DNA of 64,000 nt from contig NZ_ML703253.1 of assembly GCF_008520305.1 (NCBI RefSeq), positions 124,001 through 188,000 of the forward strand. Reading direction: 5' to 3'. The notes beneath the pieces are model-generated. The model saw only the letters and a program-made list of their open reading frames with translations, ran no database searches and was not told the origin of the DNA. Both the position numbers and the translations under genes were made by a program. This stretch comes from Mesorhizobium sp. SARCC-RB16n (GTDB taxonomy: Bacteria; Pseudomonadota; Alphaproteobacteria; Rhizobiales; Rhizobiaceae). Below, piece by piece: positions 1 through 37,401 of this stretch. Within the stretch, counting starts at the first letter, position 1; each line of letters opens with the position of its first letter.

Positions 1-1557
1 TGCTTCACAGGTGGCTGCCGCTACTACGAACCCGGAGACAATGATTTGACAGAACAGACCGAGGCTTCGGAGCCCCGGACCACAGACTTCGTTCCGCTCG
101 GTGAGCCATCTGATTGGGCAAGCCGAGGCATCAATCTCGAAAGCGCGCAGAAGTGGGGCTTCACCCGTTCGAACCTGAACGGTCAGCCCGTCCGCTTGTT
201 CAACTACCGAAACAGCGCGAGCCAGCTTGTCTGGCAGAAGGTCCGGTTCGCCGGCAAAGACTTCCGATCCAAGGGTCACAAGGACGACATGTGCCTCTAC
301 GGCCAATGGCTGTGGCGGGACGGCGGCAAGCGTGTCGTGGTCGTCGAGGGTGAGCTGGACGCGATCTCGCTCAGCCAGATGCAGGGGCATAAGTGGCCTG
401 TCGTCTCGATCCCAAACGGGTGTGACGGCGCGGCCAAGGCCCTCCGCAAGAACCTTGCATGGCTGGAGCAGTTCGAAGAGATCGTCCTCATGTTCGATGG
501 CGATGAACACGGCCAGCGGGCGACCGACGAATGCAAGGTGATCCCGTTCACTCCGGGCAAGCTGAAGATCGCCTCACTGCCCCTCAAGGACGCCAACGAG
601 ATGCTCATGGCGGGCCGCATCAAGGAGACCATCGACGCCATTTGGGGTGCCAAGGTCTACCGCCCTGACGGTCTCGTCGGGGTCTCGGACATCATGGGCG
701 ACCTCCTCAAGCCAGTCGAGTGGGGCCTACCGTGGTGCCTGGAAGAGCTGACCAAGCAGACCTATGGCCGGCGCTTCGGTGAGGTCTATGGCTTTGGCGC
801 CGGCACGGGCATCGGCAAGACCGACTTCCTGATGCAGCAGATCGCGTTCGACATCACCGATCTGAAGCAGCACGTCGGTGCGATCTTCCTCGAACAGAAG
901 CCCGTCGAGACGGCGAAGCGTGTTGCAGGCAAGTTGGCCGGTAAGATGTTCCACGTCCCCAACGCTGGGTGGACAGCCGAGGAACTGACCCGCGCCGCGA
1001 CCGAGCTGGATGGCAAGCTGTTCTTCTACGACAGCTTCGGCCAGACGGATTGGGAGTTGGTCAAGGGGCATATCCGCTACATGGCGGTGAGCCTTGGCAT
1101 CAAGCTGATCTACATCGACCACCTGACAGCCATGGCCGACACTGGCGACGAGAAAGGCACCCTCGAACAGATCATGAAGGAGATGGCCGGGCTCGCAATG
1201 GAGCTGGGCATCATCATCCACTTCGTCTCGCACTTGTCGACCCCGGATGGGAAACCTCACGAGGAAGGCGGGCGCGTCATGATCCGTCACTTCAAGGGCT
1301 CCCGAGCGATCGGCTTCTGGTCCTACTTCATGTTCGGCCTCGAACGAGACCAGCAGAACGAAGATCCGATCATCGCCACCACCACCATCTTCCGCATCCT
1401 CAAGGACCGCTACACCGGCAGATCGACGGGCAAGACCATCATGCTCGGCTTCAAGCAGGAGACCGGGCGCTTGTTCGTGCGGGAAGACGATCCCTTCAAA
1501 GACAAGGACGTTAATGACCACGGCTTCAACAACGAAGACGACGAACTCCCGTTCTAG
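1..1557 (+). CDS. T7 gp4-like DNA primase-helicase, 5' truncated by window edge
   Basis: Bifunctional replisome enzyme that makes RNA primers and unwinds DNA at the phage fork. The frame is open from base 1 and its first residues, CFTGGCRYYEPGD, look like the end of the gp4 zinc ribbon, so the TTG at 46 is not the start and the gene begins outside the window. The Toprim primase core shows VVVEGELDA and LMFDGDEHG. The RecA-type helicase has Walker A GAGTGIGKT, YIDHLTAMAD and SHLSTPDG. The C-terminus is acidic and ends in Phe (DDELPF), as in T7 gp4, where that tail contacts the polymerase. About 518 residues are visible, against 566 in T7 gp4. Confidence 0.95.
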   Translation, partial: CFTGGCRYYEPGDNDLTEQTEASEPRTTDFVPLGEPSDWASRGINLESAQKWGFTRSNLNGQPVRLFNYRNSASQLVWQKVRFAGKDFRSKGHKDDMCLYGQWLWRDGGKRVVVVEGELDAISLSQMQGHKWPVVSIPNGCDGAAKALRKNLAWLEQFEEIVLMFDGDEHGQRATDECKVIPFTPGKLKIASLPLKDANEMLMAGRIKETIDAIWGAKVYRPDGLVGVSDIMGDLLKPVEWGLPWCLEELTKQTYGRRFGEVYGFGAGTGIGKTDFLMQQIAFDITDLKQHVGAIFLEQKPVETAKRVAGKLAGKMFHVPNAGWTAEELTRAATELDGKLFFYDSFGQTDWELVKGHIRYMAVSLGIKLIYIDHLTAMADTGDEKGTLEQIMKEMAGLAMELGIIIHFVSHLSTPDGKPHEEGGRVMIRHFKGSRAIGFWSYFMFGLERDQQNEDPIIATTTIFRILKDRYTGRSTGKTIMLGFKQETGRLFVREDDPFKDKDVNDHGFNNEDDELPF

Positions 1558-1765
1558 CTGGGGCTTTTGGGTGGCCCTCGGGTTCATCTGCTGGGTGGCA
1601 TTCCTCTGCCCTCCAGCCCACTCCGAAGAGAACCACCAGGCACCGCGGAAGTGCCTTCTGGACGTGAGCAAAGCGGACAGCCCCACCCCGTTCTTCATCC
1701 CCTGCGCGAAGGCCGAGCCAAGCGTCCTCCCGATGGTTTGGTACTGGGAGGGCCAAGAGGTCTGA
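1514..1765 (+). CDS. Small membrane or exported phage protein
   Basis: An 83-residue protein of unknown function overlapping the 3' end of the primase-helicase by 44 bases. The ATG at 1514 has AAGGA at 1504-1508 in good position. Residues about 15-33 form a hydrophobic segment (WGFWVALGFICWVAFLC) followed by a polar region with two further Cys, fitting a signal anchor or signal peptide. The overlap suggests translational coupling. No family recognised. Confidence 0.55.
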   Translation: MTTASTTKTTNSRSSWGFWVALGFICWVAFLCPPAHSEENHQAPRKCLLDVSKADSPTPFFIPCAKAEPSVLPMVWYWEGQEV

Positions 1766-1956
1766 CCTTCGACAACACCAACGAGAACATACCCTCAGCG
1801 CTGATCGTTCGGCGCGAGGGCTCCCGCCTAATCCTCCAAGGCAGAACTGCCAGCATCGTCCTGTTCGCGGAAGCGTGGAGGGACCTTGTGGGCGCAATTC
1901 AAGAGGTAATGAATGGAAACGACAGTCCACAATCTGACGCAACTCCTGCTCGCTGA
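1762..1956 (+). CDS. Small phage protein with probable CTG start
   Basis: A 64-residue protein containing SALIVRREGSRLILQ and SIVLFAEAWRDLVGAI, which read as a real beta-strand/helix pattern. No ATG or GTG fits in this frame. The CTG at 1762 overlaps the upstream TGA (CTGA) and has GGGAGGG at 1747-1752 about nine bases ahead, the same arrangement as the exonuclease gene at 4753. A TTG at 1738 without a ribosome site is the alternative. Function unknown. Confidence 0.5.
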   Translation: MTFDNTNENIPSALIVRREGSRLILQGRTASIVLFAEAWRDLVGAIQEVMNGNDSPQSDATPAR

Positions 1957-2197
1957 GAAGGAAGAGAATCGCCAGCTCTACAACCGCTTCAAGGTGATTG
2001 AGCGCGAACGGAAAGAACTCCAAGTTCTGCTCGCCGCTGCCCAGGAGTTCAGGGAAACCAGCAGGGTTCTGGCCGACGAGAACGCCAGCCTCGACAAGAT
2101 GGTTGGCAAGCTGCTCGACGAGAACGTGGCGCTTAAGTCCGACAATGCTTTCCTGCGCCAGCCACAGATGATGGCCCCGGGCCTCTACAAGGGCTGA
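1913..2197 (+). CDS. Coiled-coil phage protein
   Basis: A 94-residue protein that is almost entirely helical and rich in Glu, Lys, Leu and Arg (EKEENRQLYNRFKVIERERK, then LDKMVGKLLDENVALKSDN), fitting a coiled coil. It starts at ATG 1913 inside the end of the preceding gene, with AGAGG just upstream, and its TGA overlaps the ATG of the polymerase gene. It may be a small replication accessory protein; that is inferred from position only. Confidence 0.6.
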   Translation: METTVHNLTQLLLAEKEENRQLYNRFKVIERERKELQVLLAAAQEFRETSRVLADENASLDKMVGKLLDENVALKSDNAFLRQPQMMAPGLYKG

Positions 2198-4212
2198 TGG
2201 GTCAGACCACCCTCGTCTTCGACATCGAGACGAACGGACTGATCCCAGAGATGACCACGATCCATTCGCTGGTCATCAAGAACACCGACACCGGCCAAGT
2301 CTGGTCCTGCTGCAAAGAGTACGTCGGGGACACCGGCAACTCCATCGCCTTCGGGCTGGGGCTCCTGCAGGACGCAGACGTCATCGTCGGCCACAACATC
2401 CAAGACTTCGACATCCCCGCGATCCAGAAGCTCTACCCGTCGTTCAAGCCGAAGGGCCTGATCCGCGACACCATCATCATGTCCCGCCTCATCTACGCGG
2501 ACATGCTGGACGCCGACTTCCGGCAAGAGAAGCGCCTCGGGATCGGGAAGTGGATCAAGAAGAACCTTCTCGGTCGCCACAGCCTCGAAAGCTGGGGCCA
2601 GCGCATGGGCATCTGGAAGGGTGACTATGGCGAGATCAAGAAGGCCGAGGCCAAGGCCAAAGGGCTCACCGGCCAGGACGCCGTGGACTACGTCTGGGGC
2701 AACTGGTCGAAGGAGATGCAGGACTACTGCGAGCAGGACGTCGAGGTCACCGACAGGCTTTGGCTCAAGCTCACCAAGAAGGGGTTCTCGGAAGAGAGCA
2801 TCCAGCTTGAACATGACGTGCGCCGCATCGTGGCCCGTCAGGAGGCCTATGGGTTCGCCCTCGATCTCCGCAAGGTCCAAGACCTCCACGGCACCCTGGC
2901 CCAGCGCAAGGCTGAGCTGGAGAAGGCCCTGCAGTCCGAGTTCAAGCCTTGGTATCGCAACCTTGGTCCCAAAGAGCCGACAGTCGACCGTTCCGTCTCA
3001 CAGAAGCACCTCCCGATCATCGGGTACGAGACCAAGAAGAACGGCGAGTTCAAGCTCGACAAGGACGGCAACAAGAAGCCGATCTGGCCAAAGTGCCACT
3101 ACTCGACCGACGCCCCATACACTGATGTCAAGCTGCTCCCATTCAACCCGGGCAGCCGGCAGGACGTCGCCAACCGGATGCGCAAGCTGTTCGGCTGGAG
3201 GCCCACGGAGTTCACCTCCGATGGTCACCCAAAGGTCGATGACGAGACGCTCAAGGGCCTCTCCTACCCGTCCGCGAAGGTGCTGTGCGAATACTTCATG
3301 GTTCAGAAGCGCATCGGCCAAGTTGCGGAAGGCAAGGAGGCTTGGCTTCGGCATGTGGTCAATGGCCGGGTTCACGGCAGGGTAGCCACGAACGGTGCGG
3401 TGACGGGTCGAATGACCCACTCCAAGCCCAACATGGCCCAGGTCCCGGGCATCTACGACAAGAAGACCGGCGAGAAGCTTCCTTATGGCTTCGAGTGCCG
3501 GCGGTGCTGGACCGTCGGAAAGGGCAAGAAGCTCGTCGGCTGTGACGCTGATGCGTTGGAGCTGCGGGACCTCGCCGGGTACATGGCTGCCTACGACGGC
3601 GGCGCGTACATCAAGACCGTTCTCGAAGGGAACAAGGCCGCTGGCACCGACATGCACACCCTCAACGCTGCGGCGCTGGGATGCAGTCGAGACACGGCCA
3701 AGACGTGGTTCTACGCCTTCATCTACGGATCGGGCGACGAGAACCTCGGCAACATCCTGGGCTTCACCGGCAAGCGAGCCATGGCAGAGGGCAAGAAGTC
3801 CCGCGCCAAGTTCCTCGCGGCACTGCCGGCGCTCAAGTCGTTGTCGGAAGCAGTGGCCCGCAAGGCCAAGACCCAAGGCTGGATCAAGGGGCTCGACGGT
3901 CGCATCCTCATGGTGCGCTCGGCTCACTCCTCCCTGAACACCCTCCTTCAATCCGCAGGGGCAATCCAGATGAAGCGCGCTCTCGTGATCCTAGACAACA
4001 ACCTTCAAGCGCTCGGGCTAGTCCCGGGTGTCCATTACGAGTTCGTCGCGAACGTCCACGACGAATGGCAGATCGAGGTCGATGAAGACAAAGCAGAGCT
4101 GGTGGGGAAGACGGCGCAGGACGCCATCCGACTTGCTGGCGAGTACTACAAGTTCCGCTGCCCTCTCGCTGGCAACAGCGTCGTGGGAGCGAACTGGGCC
4201 GAGACACACTAA
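2197..4212 (+). CDS. T7 gp5-like family A DNA polymerase
   Basis: Replicative phage polymerase with 3'-5' proofreading. The exonuclease domain has FDIETNG (Asp9, Glu11), GHNIQDFDIPAI and DVEVTDRLW. The polymerase domain has motif A GCDADALELRDLAG near residue 450, motif B KTWFYAFIYG near 505, and motif C NVHDEW near 622. Length 671 residues, against about 704 in T7. The ATG overlaps the previous stop (GATG), so the replication genes are translationally coupled. Processivity presumably depends on host thioredoxin as in T7, but that cannot be read from the sequence. Confidence 0.96.
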   Translation: MGQTTLVFDIETNGLIPEMTTIHSLVIKNTDTGQVWSCCKEYVGDTGNSIAFGLGLLQDADVIVGHNIQDFDIPAIQKLYPSFKPKGLIRDTIIMSRLIYADMLDADFRQEKRLGIGKWIKKNLLGRHSLESWGQRMGIWKGDYGEIKKAEAKAKGLTGQDAVDYVWGNWSKEMQDYCEQDVEVTDRLWLKLTKKGFSEESIQLEHDVRRIVARQEAYGFALDLRKVQDLHGTLAQRKAELEKALQSEFKPWYRNLGPKEPTVDRSVSQKHLPIIGYETKKNGEFKLDKDGNKKPIWPKCHYSTDAPYTDVKLLPFNPGSRQDVANRMRKLFGWRPTEFTSDGHPKVDDETLKGLSYPSAKVLCEYFMVQKRIGQVAEGKEAWLRHVVNGRVHGRVATNGAVTGRMTHSKPNMAQVPGIYDKKTGEKLPYGFECRRCWTVGKGKKLVGCDADALELRDLAGYMAAYDGGAYIKTVLEGNKAAGTDMHTLNAAALGCSRDTAKTWFYAFIYGSGDENLGNILGFTGKRAMAEGKKSRAKFLAALPALKSLSEAVARKAKTQGWIKGLDGRILMVRSAHSSLNTLLQSAGAIQMKRALVILDNNLQALGLVPGVHYEFVANVHDEWQIEVDEDKAELVGKTAQDAIRLAGEYYKFRCPLAGNSVVGANWAETH

Positions 4213-4756: not shown

Positions 4757-5559
4757 GAACACTACTTATCGACGGGGACATCCTCGTCGTATCGACCGGA
4801 GCTGCCCTTGAAGTCGAAACCGACTGGGGCGACGATGAGTGGACCCTGACTTGCGACGTCAAGGAAGTGAAGTCCACCATCTTGGACACCATCAAGCGCC
4901 TCGAAAGGGACCTTGATGCCGATGCCTCGGTGATCACCCTGTCCAAGGGCATCACCTTCCGCCACGAACTCTACCACGGCTACAAGAAGGGACGCTCCCG
5001 CAAGCCGGTTGGAACCAATGAGGTCAAGCGCTGGCTCATCGAAGAGCATGGCGCGAAATACAAGCCAGGGATCGAGGCCGACGATGTCATGGGCATCCTC
5101 GCCACCAACCCTCGGCTGATCAAAGGCGAGAAGATCATCGTGTCCCAGGACAAGGACATGCTGACGATCCCGGGCCTGATCTACCGCAATGGTGAGATCG
5201 TCAAGGTCACCCCGGAAGAGGCCGAGCTGAACTGGCTCACACAGGCCCTGACCGGCGACACCACGGACGGCTACCCTGGCTGCCCCGGCATGGGTCCGGT
5301 AACGGCCAAGGACGCCCTCGTCCGCCGCATTGGGCTGGAGAGCTACGAACACACCATCGAGCGCGGCAAGCGCAAGGGTGAGGTCGAGACCCGCTGGAAA
5401 GAGATCGACGTTCCCACGCTCTGGGACGTGGTCATCCACCAGTACCACCGCGCCGGCCTGACCACTGACGACGCCCTCCTGCAGGCCCGACTGGCCCGCA
5501 TCCTCCACAACGACGACTACGACCATGTCAAGAAGGAACCGATACTCTGGACACCGTGA
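4753..5559 (+). CDS. T7 gp6-like 5'-3' exonuclease, CTG start
   Basis: Removes primers and degrades host DNA in T7. The protein shows RTLLIDGD, EADDVMGILATNP, SQDKDMLTIPG and GDTTDGYPGCPGMG, the acidic clusters and helix-hairpin-helix of the FEN/5'-3' exonuclease fold. The N-terminal RTLLIDGDIL strand carries a catalytic Asp and lies upstream of the first GTG (4867), so translation must begin earlier. The frame is closed by TGA at 4747 and the only near-cognate start is CTG 4753, with GAGGA at 4741-4745 seven bases ahead and overlapping the previous stop (CTGA). That gives 268 residues. Starting at 4867 would delete the first active-site strand. Confidence 0.88.
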   Translation: MRTLLIDGDILVVSTGAALEVETDWGDDEWTLTCDVKEVKSTILDTIKRLERDLDADASVITLSKGITFRHELYHGYKKGRSRKPVGTNEVKRWLIEEHGAKYKPGIEADDVMGILATNPRLIKGEKIIVSQDKDMLTIPGLIYRNGEIVKVTPEEAELNWLTQALTGDTTDGYPGCPGMGPVTAKDALVRRIGLESYEHTIERGKRKGEVETRWKEIDVPTLWDVVIHQYHRAGLTTDDALLQARLARILHNDDYDHVKKEPILWTP

Positions 5560-6134: not shown

Positions 6135-6685
6135 TGGCTGAACGTCTGATCGCCTTGTCGGGGCCTGCGGGTTCCGGCAAGTCGGTAGCCGGATCACACC
6201 TCGCGGACACCCACGGGTTCACTCCCGTCAAGTTCGCCGGCCCGCTCAAGGACATGGTGCGGGCATTCTACCGGGCAGCCGGATTGACGAGCGAAGCGGA
6301 GATCGAGCGGCGGATCGAGGGGGACCTGAAAGAGGAACCCTGCAAATACCTCAACGGCTGCACCCCGCGCCACGCAATGCAAACCTTGGGGACGGAGTGG
6401 GGCCGCATGTGCATGGGCCAGAACTTCTGGATCAACGCATGGGCTCGCAAGGTCGACAGCATCGCCGGCCCGGTGGTCACCGACGACTGCCGGTTCGACA
6501 ACGAGGCCGAGACTGTTCGGGCCATCGGCGGCGACGTCGTGAGGCTCAAGCCGAAGGTTCACCGCAGGAAGACTTCGAGCCACGCCGCAGAGGCGGGCAT
6601 TGGGGAAGACTGGGTGACCCACACGGTCAAGAACGACGGAACTATCGACGATCTTCGTGACAAGCTTAGTGAGGTGGTCGGGTGA
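6134..6685 (+). CDS. Deoxynucleoside monophosphate kinase
   Basis: A 183-residue P-loop kinase related to T4 gp1-type dNMP kinases, which phosphorylate dNMPs released from host DNA. The P-loop GPAGSGKS is at residues 10-17, followed by KFAGPLKDMVRAFY, a typical substrate-binding helix. TDDCRFDNEAETVRA and the basic lid region KPKVHRRK lie later. It starts at ATG 6134 overlapping the previous stop, closing the replication/nucleotide operon just before a terminator-like hairpin. Confidence 0.88.
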   Translation: MAERLIALSGPAGSGKSVAGSHLADTHGFTPVKFAGPLKDMVRAFYRAAGLTSEAEIERRIEGDLKEEPCKYLNGCTPRHAMQTLGTEWGRMCMGQNFWINAWARKVDSIAGPVVTDDCRFDNEAETVRAIGGDVVRLKPKVHRRKTSSHAAEAGIGEDWVTHTVKNDGTIDDLRDKLSEVVG

Positions 6686-6918
6686 ATAACCCCTCCACTA
6701 GCACTACGGAGGGGTTTCTTGCTCCTCCGGCAGTCACTCGGGAACTGATGGCGTACCTCAGACAGGTATTTCCAAACAAGCTCCCCGATGACCCATCGAT
6801 TTCCGACCGTGAGCTTGGGGCTTTGATCGGACGCCAGCGGGTGATCACTCACCTCGCTCTCATCCTCGACCAACAGGAAGAAGACCTCCTCGCAAATGTG
6901 CTCAAAGCCAAAGATTGA
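6682..6918 (+). CDS. Small hypothetical phage protein
   Basis: A 78-residue frame with GTG 6682 overlapping the dNMP kinase stop (GTGA). Its first 12 codons run through the hairpin at 6690-6714. An ATG at 6748 would give MAYLRQVFPNK and 56 residues, avoiding the hairpin. The body (SISDRELGALIGRQRVITHLALILDQQEEDLLANVL) looks helical. Its end overlaps the next gene. Start uncertain, function unknown. Confidence 0.55.
   Translation: MNNPSTSTTEGFLAPPAVTRELMAYLRQVFPNKLPDDPSISDRELGALIGRQRVITHLALILDQQEEDLLANVLKAKD
6684..6717 (+). promoter_or_regulatory. Hairpin with repeated promoter-like core
   Basis: The element CCCCTCCACTAGCACTAC at 6690-6707 recurs exactly at 28775-28792. Here it forms a hairpin, CCCCTCC (6690-6696) with GGAGGGG (6708-6714), followed by TTT, which resembles a terminator. 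At the second site the hairpin is absent although the core is conserved, so the core itself probably has a function. Its start, AATAACCCCTCCACTA, resembles T3-class phage RNA polymerase promoters. It separates the replication genes from the virion genes. Confidence 0.55.
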
Positions 6919-7111: not shown

Positions 7112-8710
7112 TTGGCCGACGTTAAGATTACCATCTCAGCGAAGGCTCTATACGAACAGCTAGTCACCGACAGAAACCCGTATCTTAAGCGGGCTCGTCG
7201 GGCGGCTGAATTGACGGTCCCCTACCTGTTCCCCAAAGAGGGCACTACAGGGGCCGCTGATTTCGCAGAGCCTAACCAAGGTCTCGGCGCTCGTGGCATC
7301 AGGTTCCTGGCTTCCAAGTTGAGCCAAAGCCTGTTCCCCATCAACGCGCCTTTCTTCAAGTACGAAATCGACGACATCGCCCTCCAAGACCTGACCAAGG
7401 CCGACGACAAGAGGGGTGAGATCGAGAAGGCCCTGAGCGCCCGCGAACGTGCGGTTCTCAGCGAAATGAACGGTTCCATGTTCCGGCCCGTTGCCTTCGA
7501 AGCCTGCCGTCAGCTTGTGCTGGCTGGCAACTACATGATCTTCATCCCGAAGAAGGGCAAGCCTCGTGGCTTCCGCCTGTCATCCTACGTGGTCAATCGC
7601 GACCCGTCCGGCAACATCCTCGACATCGTCATCAAAGAGCAGATCGCTCGCGCTGCCCTGTCCGAGGACATCAAGTCCAAGATAGCCAGCACCGACGTTG
7701 CAGATAGCGACAAGGAAGCGACGGTCGATGTCTACACGCTCATCACGCTCGATGACGCCTCCAGTCAGTACATCGTGGTCCAAGAGATCGACGGTGTGCA
7801 GATCGACGGCGAATACTCGGGCTCGTACCCCAAAGACAAGCTGCCCTGGCTGCCCCTGCGTTTCACCTATGTGGAAGGCGAGGACTACGGTCGCGGCTTT
7901 GTCGACGAGTACATTGGCGACCTGAACTCCCTCGACGTCCTGACCGAAGCATTACGGGACGGCACCGTGCAAGGTGCGAAGGTTGTCTGGATTGTCTCGC
8001 CCAACGCGAACGTCCGTGTCGAGAAGCTGTCAAAGGCTGAGAACGGCGCATTCGTCCAGGGCGACATCAACCAAATCCAGCCCCTCAGGCTCGACAAGCA
8101 GGCCGACTTTGCGGTGGCCGAAAGGTTCATCCAGCAGCTCACCGAACGGCTCTCCTTCGCGTTCCTCCTTAACACCTCCGTCCAGCGGAAGGGTGAGCGG
8201 GTCACGGCAGAAGAGATTCGGTACATGGCCGGTGAACTCGACCAGGGTCTCGGCGGCGTCTACTCGCTGCTGGCTGAAGAGTTCCAGCTCCCCGTCGCTC
8301 GCCTGTTCGAGGCGCGCATGGAGTTCGTTCGCAAGGTCCCTCCGCTTCCCAAGGAGATTACCTCCACGACCATCGTTACGGGCCTAGACGCCCTTGGTCG
8401 CGGCAACGATCTGCAGAACCTCGACAGCTTCCTGGCTGGCGCTGCCCAACTGGGTGGCCCTGAAGCAATCGGCCGATACGTCAACCTCGGTGAGTATTTC
8501 AAGCGCCGTGGTGCTGCCCTTGGCATCGACATGGGTGGTCTCATCCGTACCGACCAAGAAATCCAGGCAGCCGATCAGGCAGCCATGCAGCAGCAAATGA
8601 TCTCGCAGCTCGGCCCCCAGGCAATCTCCCAGATGGGCGGTATGGCCAAGGAAGGCATGAAGCAGCAGGCCCAACCCCCACAAGCCACGACAGGAGAACA
8701 GAATGGCTGA
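7112..8710 (+). CDS. Portal (head-tail connector) protein, T7 gp8-like
   Basis: A 532-residue connector forming the ring through which DNA enters the head. The N-terminal SAKALYEQLVTDRNPYLKRA, TVPYLFPKEG and GARGIRFLASKLSQSLFP match the gp8 pattern, and the C-terminus is Gln-rich (MQQQMISQLGPQAISQMGG). The only near-standard start is TTG 7112, six bases after the TAA of the preceding gene in the same frame and without an obvious ribosome site, so translation may depend on termination upstream. Confidence 0.93.
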   Translation: MADVKITISAKALYEQLVTDRNPYLKRARRAAELTVPYLFPKEGTTGAADFAEPNQGLGARGIRFLASKLSQSLFPINAPFFKYEIDDIALQDLTKADDKRGEIEKALSARERAVLSEMNGSMFRPVAFEACRQLVLAGNYMIFIPKKGKPRGFRLSSYVVNRDPSGNILDIVIKEQIARAALSEDIKSKIASTDVADSDKEATVDVYTLITLDDASSQYIVVQEIDGVQIDGEYSGSYPKDKLPWLPLRFTYVEGEDYGRGFVDEYIGDLNSLDVLTEALRDGTVQGAKVVWIVSPNANVRVEKLSKAENGAFVQGDINQIQPLRLDKQADFAVAERFIQQLTERLSFAFLLNTSVQRKGERVTAEEIRYMAGELDQGLGGVYSLLAEEFQLPVARLFEARMEFVRKVPPLPKEITSTTIVTGLDALGRGNDLQNLDSFLAGAAQLGGPEAIGRYVNLGEYFKRRGAALGIDMGGLIRTDQEIQAADQAAMQQQMISQLGPQAISQMGGMAKEGMKQQAQPPQATTGEQNG

Positions 8711-8846
8711 CGAAAGCACACCCGAAGTGGTGACCGAAGTGGTCGCCGAAGAGAAAGCCAAAGCGGCCCCGAAGGCGAAAGCCAAAGAGAAGCGCCCGGC
8801 GAACCATGAGCTGATGATCAGCGGCAACGTCGTGGTGACACATTGA
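8703..8846 (+). CDS. Small Lys/Ala-rich protein between portal and scaffold
   Basis: A 47-residue protein (EEKAKAAPKAKAKEKRPANH in the middle, then ELMISGNVVVTH). The ATG at 8703 overlaps the portal end, preceded by AGGAGA at about 8693-8698, and its TGA overlaps the TTG start of the scaffold gene. It is too short for most gene callers but has a good ribosome site and the same coupled layout as its neighbours. Function unknown. Confidence 0.6.
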   Translation: MADESTPEVVTEVVAEEKAKAAPKAKAKEKRPANHELMISGNVVVTH

Positions 8847-9706
8847 CGACTGCTACCATTCAGGTCCAGGCCGCTCAGCCCACCGCTGACGAAAGCGCTG
8901 CGGCCCTGGCGGCTGCGGCTGCTGCTGCCCCGACGACTGAAGCTGAGGCCCGCGCCCAGATCGCTGCTGCTGAAGCGGCCAAGATCGCGCCGGCTAAGCC
9001 TGTTCGCCCCGACAGCGTCCCCGAGAAGTTCTGGGATGCCGAGAAGGGCGTCGTGAACCATGAAGCTCTCCTGGCCTCCTATACGGAGCTGGAGAAGAAG
9101 GTTGGCGCCCCGAAGGAAGAGACCAAGCCCGAAGGTGAGAAGACCGCCGAGCAGATCGCCAAGGAAGCCGCCGACAAGGCCGCTGCCGAGGATGCCCCTA
9201 AGAAGGCATCTGAGGTCGTCGCTGACCTGAACTCGAAGTTCCTGGCTCAGGACGGCAAGCTGACTGACGCCGACTACGCCGCAGCCGAGGCCATTGGTCA
9301 CGACCGCGCAACTGTCGACGCCTTCATCGCCGGCCAGCAGGCTCTCGCTGAAGTGGCAACGCAGCGCATCACCTCCGCAGCCGGTGGCAAGGAAAGCATG
9401 GACCGCATGTTCGCATGGGCGTCCACCTCCATCCCGGCAGCCGAGATCGAGACCTTCAACAAGTCATTCGAAGGTTCCGACGTGAATGCCGCTGTGGTCG
9501 CCATGGAACAGCTCAAGGCGAAGTACGAGGCCGCGAACGGGAAAGACCCGACGCTGGTAGCCGGTAAGCCCGGTGCCAATGCCTCTGACGTCTTCACGAG
9601 CTGGGCTCAGGTCCAGGCTGCGATGGGCGACGAGCGCTACAGCAAGGACCATGCGTACCGGACCCAGATCGAGCAGAAGCTCGCCCGGTCCAACAACATC
9701 CGCTAA
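8843..9706 (+). CDS. Capsid assembly scaffolding protein, T7 gp9-like
   Basis: A 287-residue, acidic, Ala/Glu/Lys-rich, mostly helical protein with PDSVPEKFWDAEKGVVNHEA near residue 55, the signature of T7-type scaffolds, which guide capsid assembly and then leave the head. The C-terminus (SKDHAYRTQIEQKLARSNNI) is basic, as expected for the coat-binding end. It starts at TTG 8843, overlapping the TGA of the small upstream gene. In T7 the capsid gene would follow directly; here the lysis cassette comes first. Confidence 0.88.
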   Translation: MTTATIQVQAAQPTADESAAALAAAAAAAPTTEAEARAQIAAAEAAKIAPAKPVRPDSVPEKFWDAEKGVVNHEALLASYTELEKKVGAPKEETKPEGEKTAEQIAKEAADKAAAEDAPKKASEVVADLNSKFLAQDGKLTDADYAAAEAIGHDRATVDAFIAGQQALAEVATQRITSAAGGKESMDRMFAWASTSIPAAEIETFNKSFEGSDVNAAVVAMEQLKAKYEAANGKDPTLVAGKPGANASDVFTSWAQVQAAMGDERYSKDHAYRTQIEQKLARSNNIR

Positions 9707-9708: not shown

Positions 9709-9754
9709 GAATAACCCCGGGAACCGTCTCTGCCTTTTGGTATGCGGCCCGGGG
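9709..9754 (+). promoter_or_regulatory. Hairpin with partial copy of the promoter-like element
   Basis: GAATAACCCC at 9709-9718 matches the start of the element at 6684 and is followed by CCCCGGG (9715-9721) pairing with CCCGGGG (9748-9754) around a 26-base loop. It sits between scaffold and endolysin. It could reduce read-through, start transcription of the lysis genes, or both. Confidence 0.4.
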
Positions 9755-9777
9755 ACATTCGCGTTCCAAAGGACACC

Positions 9778-10368
9778 ATGAACCGCCCAGCATTCTTCGC
9801 TGCGGTGCGTTCTGCGTTCGGCCCGCTGGCAGCCGCCCAGGTTGCTGGCTTCACTCTGATCCTCGATCAGGCCGAGAGGGTCAAGACACCCCTCGACCGC
9901 CTAGCCTACATGCTCGCGACGACCTACTGGGAAACCGGCAGGACGATGCAGCCTGTGGCCGAGGCCAACTGGATCAAGAACGCCGAGGCATGGCGCAAGA
10001 CGCACCTCCGCTACTACCCGTTCTACGGTCGTGGCTACGTCCAACTGACGTGGGACTACAACTACAAGAAGGCCTCTGACTACTTCCGCACGGTCCTCGG
10101 GATCAACGTTGACTTCGTCAAGAACCCCGAGCTGGTCATGCGCCCCGAGTACGCGGTCGTCATCCTGTTCGTCGGCATGGAGCAAGGCTGGTTCACCGGC
10201 AAGAAGCTCTCCGACTACATGGACGGCATCGACGAGGGTGACGTGGAAGACCTCCGCGAGTTCGTCGAAGCACGGCGCATCATCAACGGCGTCGACAAGA
10301 AACTCGAGATTGGCAAGATCGCCCTCGTGTTCGAGAAGGGTCTCCGCGCATCGGGCTACGGCAAGTGA
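9778..10368 (+). CDS. Endolysin, glycoside hydrolase family 19
   Basis: A 196-residue peptidoglycan-degrading enzyme of the chitinase-like GH19 family used by many phages for lysis. The catalytic region reads LATTYWETGRTM with Glu52 as the probable acid. FYGRGYVQLTWDYNYKKAS is the GRGxxQLTxxxNY motif of the substrate groove. There is no signal peptide, so release needs a holin. ATG 9778 has AAGGA at 9769-9773. It opens a lysis cassette lying between scaffold and capsid. Confidence 0.9.
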   Translation: MNRPAFFAAVRSAFGPLAAAQVAGFTLILDQAERVKTPLDRLAYMLATTYWETGRTMQPVAEANWIKNAEAWRKTHLRYYPFYGRGYVQLTWDYNYKKASDYFRTVLGINVDFVKNPELVMRPEYAVVILFVGMEQGWFTGKKLSDYMDGIDEGDVEDLREFVEARRIINGVDKKLEIGKIALVFEKGLRASGYGK

Positions 10369-11306: not shown

Positions 11307-11504
11307 CTCATGTTCCCGACGCCTGTTCTGACAGATCACACCCCTCTTTAGGCGGTGATCAAGGAACCAAGGAAGTCTCACCAGAAGACCACTTGGAGAC
11401 CCGCCAACCGCACCTGAGGGTGTGGAAGCCGGACAATCCCAATGACGCTTCCAGTGCTGCTCCGAGGTCCGCGCAAACCTCAGAACAAACACGGGAATAC
11501 ACAC

Positions 11505-27031: not shown

Positions 27032-28744
27032 ATGACCAAGCAGACGCTATCTGCCTCGACCTCGCTGTCGTCGCAGAAGGACCCTCTACTCGACTTCAGA
27101 AACTTCCTCTACGTCGTGTGGAAACATCTCAATCTGCCGGACCCCACGCGGGTTCAGTATGACATCGCATCATTCCTACAGCACGGCCCGAAGCGCCTCA
27201 TCATCGAAGCCTTCCGTGGTGTCGGCAAGTCCTGGGTCACCTCGGCCTTCGTCTGCTGGCTGCTCTACTGCGATCCCCAAACCAAGGTTCTCGTCATCTC
27301 GGCCTCGAAGCAGCGCTCCGATGACTTCTCGACCTTCACCATGCGCCTCATCTTCGAGATGGAGCTGCTGGCCCACCTGAGGCCCGGCCCCGATCAGCGC
27401 CAGTCCAAGGTCGCCTTCGACGTCGGCCCCGCGCGCGCCTCGCACAGCCCCTCGGTCAAGTCCCTGGGCATCACCTCACAGATCGCCGGTTCACGCGCCA
27501 ACGTGATCATCGCGGACGATATCGAGGTCCCGAACAATTCCGACACCCACCTGAAGCGCGAGAAGCTGTCCGAACAAATCAAAGAGTTCGACGCCGTGCT
27601 GTCACCGGGTGGCCGCATCATCTACCTCGGCACCCCGCAGACCGAGCAATCGATATACAACCTCCTGCCTGACCGTGGCTACGTCTGCCGCATCTGGCCG
27701 GCTCGCTTCCCCGACGAGGAGCGCCGCGCCAAGTATGGCTCCAAGCTGGCCCCGTTCGTTGGCCGGCTGCTGGACGACAAGCCCGACCTCGTGGGTGGCC
27801 CTACCGATCCCCAGCGGTTCACCGACGTGGACCTGAACGAGCGTGAGATGTCCTATGGGCGTTCAGGCTTCGCCCTTCAGTTCTACCTCGACACCAGCCT
27901 ATCGGACGAGGATCGCTTCCCGCTGAAGCTGTCCGACCTGATCATCATGGGCTTGGACCGCAAGAGGGCTCCGAGAGAGGTCGTGTGGGGCTCTGGCCCT
28001 GATCAGGTCTATGAGAAGCTGCCTATGGTTGGCCTCCCCGGCGACCGGCTGTATCGCCCGATCTTCACCGACAAGGACTACGTCGAGTATGACGGCTCGT
28101 GCATGTTCATCGACCCCTCGGGCCGAGGCAAGGACGAGACCGCATGGGCTGTGGTCAAGGCCCTGAACGGCATCCTCTACCTAACTGCTGTTGGCGGGGT
28201 CCGTGGCCACGGCTACGAGGACAAGGTGTTGGATGAAATCCTGGCCTGCGCCAAGGAGCATGAGGTCAACATCATTCAGGTCGAGCCAAACTACGGCGAT
28301 GGCATGTTCGCCCAGCTCCTCCGCGCCCGAGCCCAGCTCCGCTACCCCGTCACGATTGAGGACGCAGAGTGGTCGAAGGCCCAGAAGGAAGCTCGCATCA
28401 TCGACACCCTGGAGCCGATCATGAACCAGCACAGACTGGTGGTCGACCCGAAGGTGATCGAGTGGGACTACGACAGCACGGCTGCCCTGCCGACTGACGA
28501 GGTCAACAAGTACCGCCTGTTCTACCAAATGACCCGGATCACCAAGAACCGTGGTGCCCTGGCTCATGACGACAGACTGGATGCTGTGGCCGGCTGTGTG
28601 GCCTACTGGCTTGAATGGATGGCCAGGAACACGACGGTGGCTGTCGAACAACGGAAGCAGGAGCTGCTCGATGCTGAACTGGCCAAGTTCATGGAGACGG
28701 CCCTCGGTGGCTCCCTACGGTCGCCCCCTCGGTTCGCCCTATAG
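27032..28744 (+). CDS. Large terminase subunit (packaging ATPase/nuclease), T7 gp19-like
   Basis: A 570-residue motor that drives DNA into the head (586 in T7). Walker A is FRGVGKS at 61-67, Walker B is VIIADDIE at about 158-165, and a coupling motif GTPQTEQ follows. The nuclease half begins MFIDPSGRGKDETAW near residue 360, with a later acidic HDDRLDAVAGCVAYW. ATG 27032 follows AGGAG at 27025-27029. It is the last virion gene, followed by non-coding repeats. Confidence 0.95.
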   Translation: MTKQTLSASTSLSSQKDPLLDFRNFLYVVWKHLNLPDPTRVQYDIASFLQHGPKRLIIEAFRGVGKSWVTSAFVCWLLYCDPQTKVLVISASKQRSDDFSTFTMRLIFEMELLAHLRPGPDQRQSKVAFDVGPARASHSPSVKSLGITSQIAGSRANVIIADDIEVPNNSDTHLKREKLSEQIKEFDAVLSPGGRIIYLGTPQTEQSIYNLLPDRGYVCRIWPARFPDEERRAKYGSKLAPFVGRLLDDKPDLVGGPTDPQRFTDVDLNEREMSYGRSGFALQFYLDTSLSDEDRFPLKLSDLIIMGLDRKRAPREVVWGSGPDQVYEKLPMVGLPGDRLYRPIFTDKDYVEYDGSCMFIDPSGRGKDETAWAVVKALNGILYLTAVGGVRGHGYEDKVLDEILACAKEHEVNIIQVEPNYGDGMFAQLLRARAQLRYPVTIEDAEWSKAQKEARIIDTLEPIMNQHRLVVDPKVIEWDYDSTAALPTDEVNKYRLFYQMTRITKNRGALAHDDRLDAVAGCVAYWLEWMARNTTVAVEQRKQELLDAELAKFMETALGGSLRSPPRFAL

Positions 28745-28768: not shown

Positions 28769-28792
28769 GAATACCCCCTCCACTAGCACTAC
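28769..28792 (+). promoter_or_regulatory. Second copy of the promoter-like element
   Basis: CCCCTCCACTAGCACTAC at 28775-28792 is identical to 6690-6707, and the six bases before it differ at one position. No hairpin can form here. Just after terL, it faces the joined virion ends and the early-type genes, which fits a phage promoter serving the rightmost or leftmost end of the virion genome. Confidence 0.5.
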
Positions 28793-29425: not shown

Positions 29426-29857
29426 ATTTCCCCGCGACCCATCGGATAACAGGCACGCGCGCCGACCCCCCGTACCCCCTTCGCGCGCGCGGTAAAGGCA
29501 CGAGCGCGTGATCCCGAGCGCGGCTTGAGGTACGCGAGCGCACATCGCGCCTTCTGTCACACCTTTCGTAACGCATCCGGGCAATGCCCATGCAATCCAA
29601 GGCTTCCAACCTAATGCAGCATTTGATGATAGGCCTTCAGGGTCGACCAATGAGGCACATGAGGAGTGCGACGAGGGGCATGGAACGGGCATTCCAGTCA
29701 CGGAATGTTCATTCCCCTGTCTGCCAATCGGTGTATTTGCCCAGCAACACCTAAGCCCGCCTTCAGGTCTCACGCTAGGTCACGCCTTGCCCGGTCTCTA
29801 GCTCCGCGCGTATAGGTGCCCACATGGTTTCCTCTTGGGCGCATGGAAGGGCAGCAC
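29426..29857. other. Non-coding intergenic region with operator-like half-sites
   Basis: No convincing gene is seen between the minus-strand pair and the small membrane gene at 29858. The first part (29450-29550) is unusually rich in GCGCGC runs. Three half-sites, CATTCC 29690-29695, GGAATG 29702-29707 and CATTCC 29710-29715, form two adjacent inverted repeats. This region separates divergent genes and could hold the lysis-lysogeny control sites. Confidence 0.5.
29690..29715. promoter_or_regulatory. CATTCC/GGAATG operator-like triplet
   Basis: CATTCC, GGAATG, CATTCC with spacers of 6 and 2 bases. GGAATGTTCATTCC (29702-29715) is a perfect palindrome. Repressor unknown; candidates are the winged-helix proteins at 34824 and 35795. 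Confidence 0.45.
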
Positions 29858-30735: not shown

Positions 30736-31292
30736 CAACCATTCACACTGCATTCTGGAATGATCGCCGCGCTGCGGTGCGTCATGCTTCCATTCAATGG
30801 ACAGTCCGCGATGGCAACCGGCAACGCTGCTACAACAGCGAGGCGGCAAGGCTTCATCCAAGGGCTGGCAAGTTCGACGATAGGCAAGCGGCTAAGGGTT
30901 TTGCCCGGCTGTGCGCCAAGATCGCCATTCGCCACATGATCGCAACCGGCGTCATCGCTGATTACGACAAGGTGACGCAAGAGGTGGTGCGGGCTTCCTT
31001 CAAGGTCGCAATGACCAAGGAAAGCCGCGCGGTGTGTGATGGTTGCTCCGCTGGCGTCTACTTCGCCAAATGGGGCTGGACCGACACAATCATCACCCAT
31101 GAAGTCGCACATTGGGCCGACCAATGGGCACACAAGCTTGGCGGTAAAGCCACCCTGTCGGCCTATGAGCCGCATGGCCCTAAGTGGCGCGGCTGGTACA
31201 CCTATCTGCTTGCCGCCGCGTCGGATCGCTTCACAGTCGAGGGGATAACCGCTGGTTGGAAGGCGGATCGCCTGCCCGTTCTCATGCCATAG
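30732..31292 (+). CDS. SprT-like zinc metallopeptidase
   Basis: A 186-residue protein with the zinc motif HEVAH (IITHEVAHWADQWAHK) and a later PHGPKWRGWY carrying the probable third ligand His, the arrangement of SprT/minigluzincin peptidases. A CDGC pair occurs before the active site. There is no C-terminal zinc finger. Related domains in SPRTN-like proteins cut DNA-protein crosslinks. In an early phage region it might remove host proteins from DNA or inactivate a host factor, which is inference. ATG 30732 overlaps the previous stop. Confidence 0.72.
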   Translation: MTTIHTAFWNDRRAAVRHASIQWTVRDGNRQRCYNSEAARLHPRAGKFDDRQAAKGFARLCAKIAIRHMIATGVIADYDKVTQEVVRASFKVAMTKESRAVCDGCSAGVYFAKWGWTDTIITHEVAHWADQWAHKLGGKATLSAYEPHGPKWRGWYTYLLAAASDRFTVEGITAGWKADRLPVLMP

Positions 31293-31371
31293 CCTTGTCC
31301 ATTCTTCTGCACTGTCGGGAACGTCTCGGCAGTGTAGCGGTATGCACAACCACAAACGTGAGGTTCTCACC

Positions 31372-32205
31372 ATGGCTAAGCTCTTCAAGTCCAAGACCAT
31401 CCGCTCGGGTGGCAACGCCAAGACCATCAAAGGCGACAAGTTCGGGGAATATGAGACGGCGATCATGTACCTTGCGCCGGCCAAACAGGCTCTCATGGGC
31501 AATGTCTGCCCGATGGCTGAAACCGCTGGCTGTGAAATGGGCTGCCTGTCAAAGGCTGGCCGCGCCGGCATGTTCTCGTCCATTGTCGAGGCACGGATCG
31601 CCAAGACGCAACGGTATTTCAGCAACCGCGCCGCGTTCATGGCCGACTTGGTCAAGGACATTGAGGCCTTTGTGCGCTACTGCAACCGCAAGGGTGTCAA
31701 GCCAGCGGTTCGGCTGAACGGCACGTCAGACATTCAATGGGAGGTGGCGCACCCATGCCAACGGGACGCCCCTAAGGGTCACTTCTCGTACCCTGTGGCG
31801 TACCTCCACGCGTCCATCTTCGAAGCTTTCCCCGAGGTGCAATTCTACGATTACACCAAGGTCTACAAGCGGGCCTACCGCAAGCTGCCTGCCAACTATT
31901 CGCTGACCCTGTCCTATAGCGAGGCCTCGCCGGCCTATGCTGCCGCCGTCATCAAGACCGCTTGCGAAACCGGCATCAACATGGCTGTGGTCTATCGGTC
32001 CAAGGCCATCCGCGACAACATGCTGTCAAGCGGTGATGCCTTCGGTGATGCCTCCAATGGTGTGGTGTCAACCACCCGCGTCATTCGTCCAGTCATCGAC
32101 GGTGACGAAACCGATATGCGCTTCACGGACCCGCAAGGCGTCATCGTCGGGCTCTACGCAAAGGGGCCAGCCAAGAAGGACACTTCTGGCTTCGTTATCG
32201 ACTAA
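31372..32205 (+). CDS. Conserved-looking phage protein with Cys cluster
   Basis: A 277-residue protein: LFKSKTIRSGGNAKTIKGDK, then CPMAETAGCEMGCLSKAGRA with three close Cys, then AYRKLPANYSLTLSYSEASP. The Cys-rich motif and GGNAK start recall phage gene-product-88-like proteins, whose role is unknown; this is a resemblance, not a secure match. ATG 31372 has GTGAGG at 31359-31364; ATG 31342 is an alternative. Possible metal or nucleic acid binding. Confidence 0.6.
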   Translation: MAKLFKSKTIRSGGNAKTIKGDKFGEYETAIMYLAPAKQALMGNVCPMAETAGCEMGCLSKAGRAGMFSSIVEARIAKTQRYFSNRAAFMADLVKDIEAFVRYCNRKGVKPAVRLNGTSDIQWEVAHPCQRDAPKGHFSYPVAYLHASIFEAFPEVQFYDYTKVYKRAYRKLPANYSLTLSYSEASPAYAAAVIKTACETGINMAVVYRSKAIRDNMLSSGDAFGDASNGVVSTTRVIRPVIDGDETDMRFTDPQGVIVGLYAKGPAKKDTSGFVID

Positions 32206-34090: not shown

Positions 34091-34091
34091 T

Positions 34092-34763: not shown

Positions 34764-34805
34764 CCCGGGTAATCCGCCGTTGACCACACGGAAGGGATGC
34801 CCGGG
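34764..34805 (+). promoter_or_regulatory. Hairpin upstream of the winged-helix gene
   Basis: CCCGGG at 34764-34769 and again at 34800-34805 can pair, extended imperfectly on the inner side. It covers the ATG at 34797, which argues that the regulator gene starts at 34824 instead. There is no T-tract. Confidence 0.35.
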
Positions 34806-34823
34806 AACGGGAGGACTGTTGGA

Positions 34824-35213
34824 ATGCTTAACTCACCCAAGGAGAGGGCCAAACGTTGTATCCTGATCGAGATGATGCTCGGCATTCAGGAGGCCATTGC
34901 AAAGCTGGAATTTGATGGGGAGGTCAGCCTCGTGCTTATGGCGGTGCGCCTCGGCCATTACCAAGGAAAGCCACTGGACATCACGTCCTTGGCCGGCGCT
35001 ACGAGCCTACCGCGAACGACCGTGCTGCGACACATCAGGTTGCTGGAGGCAAATGATAGGATTGCGATCAAGCGCGGTAGCCGGCGCACTGTGGTGACGC
35101 TCAACGGCAAGGCTGAGACGAAGTTCACCAAGCCTTTCTATCAGCGCGTTGAGAGGATCGTTCGGGAGGCTTCCCGCGACCTGTCCATTTTGGACACCAA
35201 AACTATAGACTAA
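34824..35213 (+). CDS. Winged-helix transcription regulator
   Basis: A 129-residue protein with a MarR/ArsR-like DNA-binding domain: LDITSLAGATSLPRTTVLRH, IRLLEANDRIAIK, RRTVVTLNGKAE as the wing. The N-terminus is helical (IEMMLGIQEAIAKLEFDGEV) and likely dimerises. ATG 34824 has GGGAGGA at 34808-34814. As one of two winged-helix genes near int it is a candidate for the lysogeny repressor. Confidence 0.72.
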   Translation: MLNSPKERAKRCILIEMMLGIQEAIAKLEFDGEVSLVLMAVRLGHYQGKPLDITSLAGATSLPRTTVLRHIRLLEANDRIAIKRGSRRTVVTLNGKAETKFTKPFYQRVERIVREASRDLSILDTKTID

Positions 35214-35794: not shown

Positions 35795-36151
35795 ATGAAC
35801 ACCTTTGCCGGGCGCAAGCCCGAGAACAAGACAGCGCGGCGACTGCTCTCATTCATTGAGGAGTTCGGTAAGCTCGACGCAGAAATGCAAATCCAACAGA
35901 TCGCGGTCTTTCTCCACGTCATGGGGACGCCTGACCTCACGATGCGCGAACTGGAACAGGCGACTGGGCTCAGCTCGTCCTCGGTCAGCCGGAACGTCTC
36001 CGCGCTGTCCAAGGTCCACCGCAAGGGCCAGCCGGGGCATGACCTCGTCACCACCTATGAGGACGCCATGGATCGCCGCATCAAGCGGGTTCGGGCGACC
36101 CCGAAGGGCAGCAAGGTCTTCAACACGCTCATGAACCTATTAGGGAGTTAA
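35795..36151 (+). CDS. MarR-like winged-helix regulator next to integrase
   Basis: A 118-residue protein with DLTMRELEQATGLSSSSVSR, NVSALSKVHR and RRIKRVRATPKGSKVFNTLM, the helix-turn-helix and wing/C-terminal pattern of MarR-like regulators. It ends six bases before the integrase gene, so the two are probably co-transcribed. It may control integration or the lytic switch. Confidence 0.75.
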   Translation: MNTFAGRKPENKTARRLLSFIEEFGKLDAEMQIQQIAVFLHVMGTPDLTMRELEQATGLSSSSVSRNVSALSKVHRKGQPGHDLVTTYEDAMDRRIKRVRATPKGSKVFNTLMNLLGS

Positions 36152-36156
36152 CCACC

Positions 36157-37218
36157 ATGGCGGTCTATTCACGCGGCAACGGCTTCCAGGCCAACTTCAC
36201 GGTCAAGGGAAAGCGGTACATCGAGCAGTTCTCATCCGAAGCCGATGCCGAGCGGTGGGAGTTTGACACGAAGCAGGCGATCAAGCTCGGTCGTCCCCTT
36301 CCTGCTGGCCCTGCCCGTTCGGTTGGCGGTGGTGACACAGGCACCCTCGGGCAAGTCCTCAGGTCAGCCGAGAAGGAGCATTGGGGTCGCCTCAATGCCA
36401 AGACTGGCGGTGACCAAGCGCGACTGTTCGTCAAGTGGGCTGGCTCCGAGACGGCACCCCACGAGGCGCTGTCCGAAGAGAACATCCGCAAATACATCAA
36501 CTACCTCCATGACGAGCGCAGGATCGGCACGTCGGCCATCAACCTCTACAAGGCCAACATCAGCGTCCTGATCAAGTACGCCAAGGTGCCAAAGGTTGAC
36601 CTGAAGTGGGATCGCCCCGAGGCAGGACAGCCGAGGTTCTTCAGCGAGGAGGAAGTAGCCCTTGTGATCCAGACGCTGACCCTGTGGTCAATGCCTGTCG
36701 AGCGGGACTTCTTCATGTTCCTCGTCGACACCGGAATGCGCCCGTTCTCGGAGGCCACAGCCTTCAGGTGGGACGCCTACTGGGATGGCAAGGTGACCCT
36801 GCAGAAGGCTGCCCGTGGCCGAGGCGAGGCTGTGCGTCGAACCAAGACTGGCAAGAGCCGGACGGTGCCCCTGACGCGCCGCGCTATCGAGGCTGTCGAA
36901 CGGCAGCGTGTGCGCGGTCTCAAGGGTCCGTTCTCGGACATCACCAAGTCCCGCATGGTCTACGTGTGGGACAAGGTCAGGCAGCACCTTCCGCAGCTCA
37001 GCGACACCGTCCTGTACACGGCGCGGCACACCTGTGCGTCCTGGCAAGTCATCGCCGGCATCGACCTTCGCCGCGTCATGATGTGGATGGGGCACGACAG
37101 CTACAAGACGACCCTGATCTACGCCAACCTCGCGCCCACGCATCTGCTCGACAACCTTGCTGCGCTGGAAGGCCAGAGTGCCCCGAAGCTCACGGTTGTT
37201 GGCGGCAAACGTGCGTGA
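36157..37218 (+). CDS. int: Tyrosine-family phage integrase
   Basis: A 353-residue site-specific recombinase that inserts and excises the prophage. The N-terminal part has an arm-binding-like domain (AVYSRGNGFQANFTVKGKRY) followed by a SAM-like core-binding domain. The catalytic domain shows GMRPFSEATAF (Arg195), YTARHTCASW (Tyr287, Arg290, with Tyr in place of the usual His), MMWMGHDSYKTTLIYANL with the nucleophile Tyr322. It is transcribed towards the right prophage end, the common layout with att just beyond the gene. Confidence 0.95.
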   Translation: MAVYSRGNGFQANFTVKGKRYIEQFSSEADAERWEFDTKQAIKLGRPLPAGPARSVGGGDTGTLGQVLRSAEKEHWGRLNAKTGGDQARLFVKWAGSETAPHEALSEENIRKYINYLHDERRIGTSAINLYKANISVLIKYAKVPKVDLKWDRPEAGQPRFFSEEEVALVIQTLTLWSMPVERDFFMFLVDTGMRPFSEATAFRWDAYWDGKVTLQKAARGRGEAVRRTKTGKSRTVPLTRRAIEAVERQRVRGLKGPFSDITKSRMVYVWDKVRQHLPQLSDTVLYTARHTCASWQVIAGIDLRRVMMWMGHDSYKTTLIYANLAPTHLLDNLAALEGQSAPKLTVVGGKRA

Positions 37219-37262
37219 CAGATCGCGTTACAGATGCCGCGAAATCGTTACATCTGTTACAG
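37215..37262. repeat. GTTACAG repeats at the probable right attachment site
   Basis: GTGACAG (37215-37221), GTTACAG (37227-37233), GTTACA (37247-37252) and GTTACAG (37256-37262) cluster at and just after the integrase stop. GTTACAGATG and CATCTGTTAC are also near-inverted. Such repeats commonly serve as integrase arm-binding sites beside attP/attR. The att core itself cannot be fixed without the left end. Confidence 0.5.
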
Positions 37263-37401
37263 AACGATCCCTTGCGATCCCTGGGTTCCCGCATAACGAA
37301 GCGTTTAGAGCCTGCCTGGCCCAAAAGACGTGGCTTGCCGCGGATCATCCCCGCGCATAGCGTCGACCAACGTTTTTCGCGCACCAACAAGGATCGAACT
37401 C

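Follow-up and report, generated by a model that had tools for sequence, protein, structure and literature searches.

How does a T7-like phage come to lie in a rhizobial genome with its terminase genes running on into early genes, and with an integrase gene at the border to host DNA? This question is raised by the stretch of 64,000 nucleotides analysed here (the window), positions 124,001 to 188,000 of contig NZ_ML703253.1 of Mesorhizobium sp. SARCC-RB16n. We are highly confident that the window holds the right-hand 37.3 kb of an integrated temperate T7-like prophage, which belongs to the group of Mesorhizobium phage vB_MloP_Lo5R7ANS (KM199771, Autographiviridae, Pairvirus; in the following Lo5R7ANS) and whose gene order has been permuted via a circle. 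The prophage is probably functional. A sister prophage in Mesorhizobium loti LU, described further below, serves as the second reference.

Forty open reading frames of the window, picked by us, were scanned against PHROGs and 23 of them found a match (7/10, 8/10, 5/10 and 3/10 in the individual batches). The order of the identified genes on one strand is that of T7, i.e., replication, virion and packaging genes. The end of terL, the gene for the large terminase subunit, at 28744 is followed by small genes, most of them unassigned, then by the gene for a MarR-type regulator and finally by that for a tyrosine integrase (int), with 5 bases separating the end of the upstream MarR-type gene from int. 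A preliminary description of the window had proposed just this succession, ending at a host junction, and the PHROGs matches together with all 15 host loci compared below confirm it. The left edge of the window cuts the prophage, of which, by the measure of the sister, about 8 kb lies beyond. An RNA polymerase gene was not found within the window; its expected place is to the left of base 1. The genes are:

1..1557, plus strand: DNA primase/helicase, 5' start cut by the window edge (phrog_239, E=1e-158; 92.9% identity to the Lo5R7ANS primase)
2197..4212, plus strand: T7-like DNA polymerase (phrog_17, E=6.6e-137)
4867..5559, plus strand: 5'-3' exonuclease (phrog_107, E=3.4e-46)
5556-6134, plus strand: 5'-3' deoxyribonucleotidase (phrog_2643)
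6134-6685, plus strand: deoxynucleoside monophosphate kinase (phrog_139)
7112..8710, plus strand: portal, or head-tail adaptor (phrog_449, E=5e-169)
8843..9706, plus strand: head assembly/scaffold protein (phrog_1052)
9742..10368, plus strand: endolysin (phrog_181)
11442..12437, plus strand: major capsid protein (phrog_267)
12516..15578, plus strand: two tail tube proteins (phrog_446, phrog_457)
15539-16039, 16043-16591 and 18874-22584, plus strand: internal virion proteins (phrog_308, phrog_805, phrog_342)
22636..24570, plus strand: tail fibre with collagen-like repeats (phrog_5073; phrog_1806, 'collagen like minor tail')
25198..25464, plus strand: terminase small subunit (phrog_891, E=7.6e-10)
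27032..28744, plus strand: terminase large subunit, terL (phrog_38, E=7e-111)
30738..32205, plus strand: first early genes, homologues of Lo5R7ANS gp01 and gp02 (tblastn, 59% and 78% identity), the gp02 homologue belonging to Pfam family GP88 (PF17338)
34797..35213, plus strand: early protein, homologue of Lo5R7ANS gp09 (43% identity)
35795..36151, plus strand: MarR-type regulator with a MarR_2 domain (PF12802, E=2.2e-8; phrog_9665, transcriptional regulator, E=1.5e-33)
36157..37218, plus strand: tyrosine integrase, int (phrog_1, E=3.8e-36; 70-72% identity to the integrase of the M. loti LU prophage)

Amid the internal virion proteins, a protein of 741 amino acids (16591-18816, plus strand) found no PHROGs match. 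An open reading frame at 4028-4546 overlaps the 3' end of the DNA polymerase gene and weakly matches a homing endonuclease family (phrog_18411, E=8.6e-4).

Lo5R7ANS is the closest isolate. When window 7112-24567 was compared by megablast with 50,697 phage records, two matched, and both were Lo5R7ANS. Whole-genome nucleotide similarity of about 70% marks the limit of a phage genus; the value obtained here, 81% identity over 82% of the query, refers to the structural part of a prophage that has about 8 kb of its genome outside the data. The Lo5R7ANS genome was deposited as a linear molecule of 45,718 bp with the early genes first, int at 6073-7152, the RNA polymerase gene at 10485-12950 and terL, annotated there as 'putative DNA maturase B', at 43278-44984. 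It carries a terminal repeat of 239 bp at both ends (bases 8-246 are identical to bases 45480-45718). The window is colinear with this genome in two blocks, 1-29187 corresponding to Lo5R7ANS 17057-45414 and 29794-35547 to Lo5R7ANS 318-5456. Between the two blocks, at 29441-29483 and 29671-29730, the window shows pieces of the terminal repeat, with matches to both Lo5R7ANS termini:

29441..29730, no strand assigned: virion terminal repeat, single copy in two recognisable pieces, the joint of the ends (match to the Lo5R7ANS termini)

The Lo5R7ANS repeat is found in one place in the window, in the two pieces just named, and in one place in the sister contig (bases 1-124 of the repeat, at 76%). 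Comparison of window 1-37290 with itself yielded no direct repeat at E 1e-8. Because the genomes are colinear and the repeat sits at the joint, we infer that the virion ends meet where they had been predicted to meet, between 28.7 and 30.6 kb, and that the prophage represents the circular form, opened at another place. The proposed opening of the circle at attP, next to int, is likewise supported, since in Lo5R7ANS int lies upstream of the polymerase gene and the prophage is opened in precisely that interval.

At the right-hand end the prophage borders on host DNA in the window itself. When 146 genomes of the genus were searched with window 37216-39300, matches were obtained in 145, and among the matches listed many start at window position 37291, others start later and none starts earlier. 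In all of the 15 best loci fetched, host homology begins at 37291, which places the host junction 72 bp past int. The features around it are:

37227..37261, plus strand: three GTKACA repeats, candidate arm-type integrase sites (motif first picked by eye)
37294..37308, no strand assigned: attR core TAACGAAGCGTTTAG, common to the empty sites (comparison with empty sites)
37402..38517, plus strand: host gene for cystathionine gamma-lyase, right of attR (NF005758, 551 bits against a cut-off of 440; ATG at 37402)

In the empty sites, TTAAGCCTAACGAA is followed by two variable bases and then by GTTTAG, the variable bases being GC in most of the 15 loci and CC or GG in the others. In the fetched loci, the DNA before the empty site leads to mraZ. 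One of them (L121, genome G139) encodes MraZ, MraW, a penicillin-binding transpeptidase and a Mur ligase in a row; the distance from the mraZ start to the far edge of the core amounts to 313 bp in this locus and to 298 bp in M. loti LU. By these comparisons, the integration site is intergenic and lies between the divergent genes for MraZ and cystathionine gamma-lyase. With up to two mismatches, the 24-bp empty-site pattern ATTAAGCCTAACGAAGCGTTTAGA has a single occurrence in each of 133 of the 146 genus genomes and none in the reversed control, and M. loti LU is among the 13 genomes that lack it. We found no report of a prophage integration site on the mraZ side among open-licence PMC papers.

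The GTKACA motif is present three times in the 95 bp after int in the window, and in the sister contig three times in the last 130 bp and four times in the first 185 bp, compared with a background of 0.29 per kb in the window prophage and 0.39 per kb in the sister. These repeats likely represent arm-type integrase sites that flank the core on both sides. Note that the 24-bp attB (37291-37314) is strongly conserved across the genus though intergenic, and that it carries the dyad AACG-AAG-CGTT; it might act in the regulation of mraZ or of the gamma-lyase gene. Between the core and mraZ, three ATGGG repeats were seen by eye, which may be MraZ boxes. Two other settings were considered and dismissed. 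A transfer RNA (tRNA) gene as the integration site finds no support, as ARAGORN detects no tRNA in the window and none in the 13 empty-site loci scanned (L106 and L108 were left out). With regard to a plasmid home, a search with window 28745-52000 matched 178 plasmid records, none of them over more than 80% of the query.

Both ends of such an element can be followed in M. loti LU. Its contig C16 (NZ_PJRO01000023; 44,084 bp) is a T7-like prophage at the same host site, and it starts and ends with the same 15-bp core, GCCTAACGAAGTGTT. The last 127 bases of C16 equal the first 127 of contig C34, which runs into the gamma-lyase gene, and its first 127 bases are those at the end of contig C12, which extends to mraZ. 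A T7-like RNA polymerase gene is located at 1121-3613, 1.1 kb inside attL, while int is found at 42912-43988, at attR. The order is thus the predicted one: attL, polymerase, and so on to terL, joined ends, early genes, int and attR. The joint itself lies on this one contig, with terL at 33793-35499, the repeat match at 35949-36072, and homologues of gp08-gp11 together with int from 41284 to 43988. The two prophages resemble each other in host site, gene order, an integrase of about 70% identity and a near-identical att core. They differ in that the core of the sister reads GTGTT where that of the window prophage reads GCGTT, and in the letters of the upstream half of the promoter-like element discussed below. 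By analogy with the sister, attL, an RNA polymerase gene and an att core at both ends would also belong to the window prophage.

The LU contigs break exactly at both core edges, with equal overlaps of 127 bp (L110, which is C16, at 1-15; the end of L112; L131 and L134). This suggests that attP, i.e., phage-to-phage, junctions were present in the sequenced sample, stemming from excised circles or from a tandem pair, because a de Bruijn assembly, if such an assembler was used, would break in this manner. No empty-site junction was seen in the M. loti LU genome, which contains four exact copies of the core.

These findings can be combined as follows. In the virion, the DNA would be linear with a short terminal repeat in direct orientation, and upon injection its ends would join through this repeat into a circle, leaving the one copy now seen at about 29.44-29.73 kb of the window. 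The integrase would use an attP of lambda style, with arm-type GTKACA sites beside the core around TAACGAAG, and would recombine the circle with the intergenic attB between mraZ and the cystathionine gamma-lyase gene. With attP situated between the RNA polymerase gene and int, insertion would yield the order attL, RNA polymerase, replication genes, virion genes, terL, joined ends, early genes, MarR regulator, int and attR. Lysogeny would be under the control of the MarR-type regulator.

Several observations weigh against an integrated, circularly permuted prophage of the Lo5R7ANS group. Of the 239-bp Lo5R7ANS repeat, only 43 + 60 bp match the window, and the exact ends are not fixed. Lo5R7ANS is, to judge from integrases that are 32-33% identical and from the absence of the core in its genome, an isolate without the att site of the window prophage. 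The attR differs by one base from the usual attB just left of the core (GCAT vs GCCT). In the sister, homologues of gp08-gp11 were found and none of gp01 and gp02, so conservation does not reach the start of the early region. In addition, attL, the RNA polymerase gene and the left flank lie outside the window and were seen in the sister only.

In principle, the arrangement can also be explained in other ways. The window could hold a decayed or truncated T7-like remnant that has lost polymerase and attL and whose remaining part is a fossil. This would agree with the position of the left prophage end outside the window and with excerpts from PMC8776855 in which integration of T7-like cyanophages is called transient and without stable lysogens. 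However, the window's genes for replication, virion, packaging and integration have open reading frames and match known families, and the sister at the same site possesses the polymerase gene and both att cores, so that we regard a remnant as improbable. The gene order taken by itself would also fit virion DNA that is circularly permuted as a result of headful packaging, and the prophage order would then be uninformative about fixed virion ends. Such packaging appears slightly less probable still, because the closest isolate was deposited as a linear molecule with the 239-bp repeat at both ends, because this repeat maps to the joint, and because terL is of the T7 type (phrog_38; annotated as a maturase in Lo5R7ANS). 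Finally, the joint at 28.7-31 kb might be an assembly artefact that fuses two phages. The window is known from one record only, but the same joint is present on one contig in the independent assembly of M. loti LU, and an artefact can hardly be credited.

How an integrated T7-type phage could be kept silent is a question on which the position of attP bears. Two near-identical elements of 24 bp that end in CACTAGCACTAC were detected in the window prophage:

6684..6707, plus strand: promoter-like element upstream of the portal gene, about 400 bp before it (1 of 24 bases differs from 28769-28792)
28769..28792, plus strand: promoter-like element starting 25 bp past the terL end (near-identical to 6684-6707)

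Neither the minus strand nor the 26,710-bp host part of the window, which served as a control, contains a copy. At least one copy of the pattern ACTAG[CG][ACG]CTAC, always on the plus strand, is present in 9 of 12 phage sequences scanned, the exceptions being L005, L008 and L010. Copies are located just after the polymerase gene in C16, L002, L009, L012, L006 and L007, and at 12986 in Lo5R7ANS with one mismatch; before the portal gene in the window and in relatives; and after terL in the window, C16 and Lo5R7ANS (the other pieces stop short of terL). Five sequences (C16, Lo5R7ANS, L002, L009 and L012) cover the region that extends from int or attL up to the polymerase gene, and none of them has a copy there. 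Upstream of the shared part, the sequence varies from genome to genome but is mostly constant within each of them (one of the four C16 copies deviates), which would be expected if the polymerase and its promoter changed in concert. Other scans were less telling. A motif found in the non-coding DNA of Lo5R7ANS occurred, at up to 5 mismatches, at numbers near the shuffled mean (7 vs 3.3 in the window, 2 vs 3.7 in the sister contig), and at up to 8 mismatches of 23 its 6 occurrences in the window were at shuffle level (0-7). Repeated 18-mers over whole phage genomes gave no promoter candidate, and scans for host sigma-70 promoters and terminators remained below the shuffled mean. The case for T7-type phage promoter-like elements therefore rests on their near-identity and their shared places.

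It is conceivable, though we consider it unlikely, that integration itself acts as the lysis-lysogeny switch, cutting the polymerase gene off from the early promoters, and that excision rejoins them and starts the lytic programme. The polymerase gene would be cut off because attP lies between the early/int operon and the polymerase gene and because no phage-type promoter was found before this gene in the relatives. In the integrated state it would adjoin host mraZ, which reads the opposite way, and if the early promoters were the only start for the polymerase, integration would hold the phage silent. The model is weakened by tRNA genes that read towards the polymerase gene in two related genomes (G009 and G011), and by repression through MarR being the published model.

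The relatives examined comprise the best 80 of 245 from a scan of viral contigs and 13 loci from a scan of genome contigs, and no copy of the window prophage was found among them; primase identity reached 93% at most, in the 45,718-bp record L015. The integrase query matches all 14 of the relatives' records or genomes at E 0.001, some of them weakly. In the six virus records (G001-G006), int is without exception near one end and the polymerase gene near the other; note that prophage predictors determine where such records end, and that these ends do not constitute att evidence. G007, which shares length and int position with the M. loti LU contig (G008:C16), was not counted again. Polymerase gene and int stand about 39-41 kb apart, in the same order and on one contig, in five of six further genomes (G009-G014), a count that includes a weak and partial integrase match in G013 (E=6.4e-5); in G014 the int match is on another contig. 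Shared att words at the prophage ends comprise 50 bp in G009 (tRNA-Lys) and 84 bp (tRNA-His) as well as 55 bp (tRNA-Leu) in G011, while the longest shared end words in G010, G012, G013 and G028 are 14-20 bp (for G028, the right-hand stretch was taken without knowledge of the int place). Within the genus, 4 of 146 genomes encode a T7-like polymerase at E 1e-50. An integrase of the window type was found at E 1e-60 in one of the 146, namely M. loti LU, which is also among the four polymerase carriers. In contig L002, a stretch resembling the 5' half of tRNA-Leu was seen by eye within about 250 bases after int. Sister lineages may thus use tRNA-Leu and the window lineage the mraZ site.

Across the relatives, the DNA that separates attP from the RNA polymerase gene appears to be a spot for variable cargo. 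In Lo5R7ANS (7233-10328) it holds a BglII-like restriction enzyme, a methyltransferase, tRNA-Leu and an RtcB-like gene, in the M. loti LU prophage (188-793) a different open reading frame, and in relative L004 (591-1790) homologues of gp15 and gp16.

The preliminary description regarded a T7-like lysogen as notable in itself. The weight given to this is not supported, as temperate T7-like phages and prophages with int near the polymerase gene are already in print: excerpts from PMC10134795 describe Pseudomonas phage LUZ100, Agrobacterium phage Pasto, Pelagibacter phage HTVC019P and a prophage of P. putida KT2440, call the proof of maintained lysogeny ambiguous and state that stable lysogens were not obtained. 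No reports on Lo5R7ANS, on Pairvirus or on a combination of early promoters with attP were found among open-licence PMC papers. The temperate T7-like prophage is accordingly known as a kind, and what is new here is a further example at an unusual spot beside cell-division genes. It adds a rhizobial case of a T7-like phage as a prophage, with a sister showing both ends, and documents a non-tRNA integration site before mraZ, at the head of the division/cell-wall cluster. Moreover, an attP placed such that integration parts the polymerase gene of the phage from the early operon would offer a simple, testable model of T7-type silence.

Lo5R7ANS shares with the window prophage the colinear genome, a homologous terminal repeat, a homologue of the MarR-type regulator (gp11) before int and, probably, a position of int upstream of the RNA polymerase gene; it differs in its integrase, in the absence of the att core and in its own cargo between int and polymerase. 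According to the excerpts from PMC10134795, the phages treated there are alike in having an integrase gene near that for RNA polymerase and, in several cases, a MarR-like regulator beside int. LUZ100 is unlike the relatives of the window prophage in that a phage promoter immediately precedes its polymerase gene, a position in which none was found in these relatives. For LUZ100 and the Pelagibacter phages, the same excerpts indicate tRNA-Leu, whereas the site of the window prophage is intergenic. Excerpts from PMC8776855 show the T7-like cyanophages P-SSP7 and S-TIP37 to differ by a tRNA-Leu site and by forming no stable lysogens, and to resemble the window prophage in carrying int with attP downstream of it.

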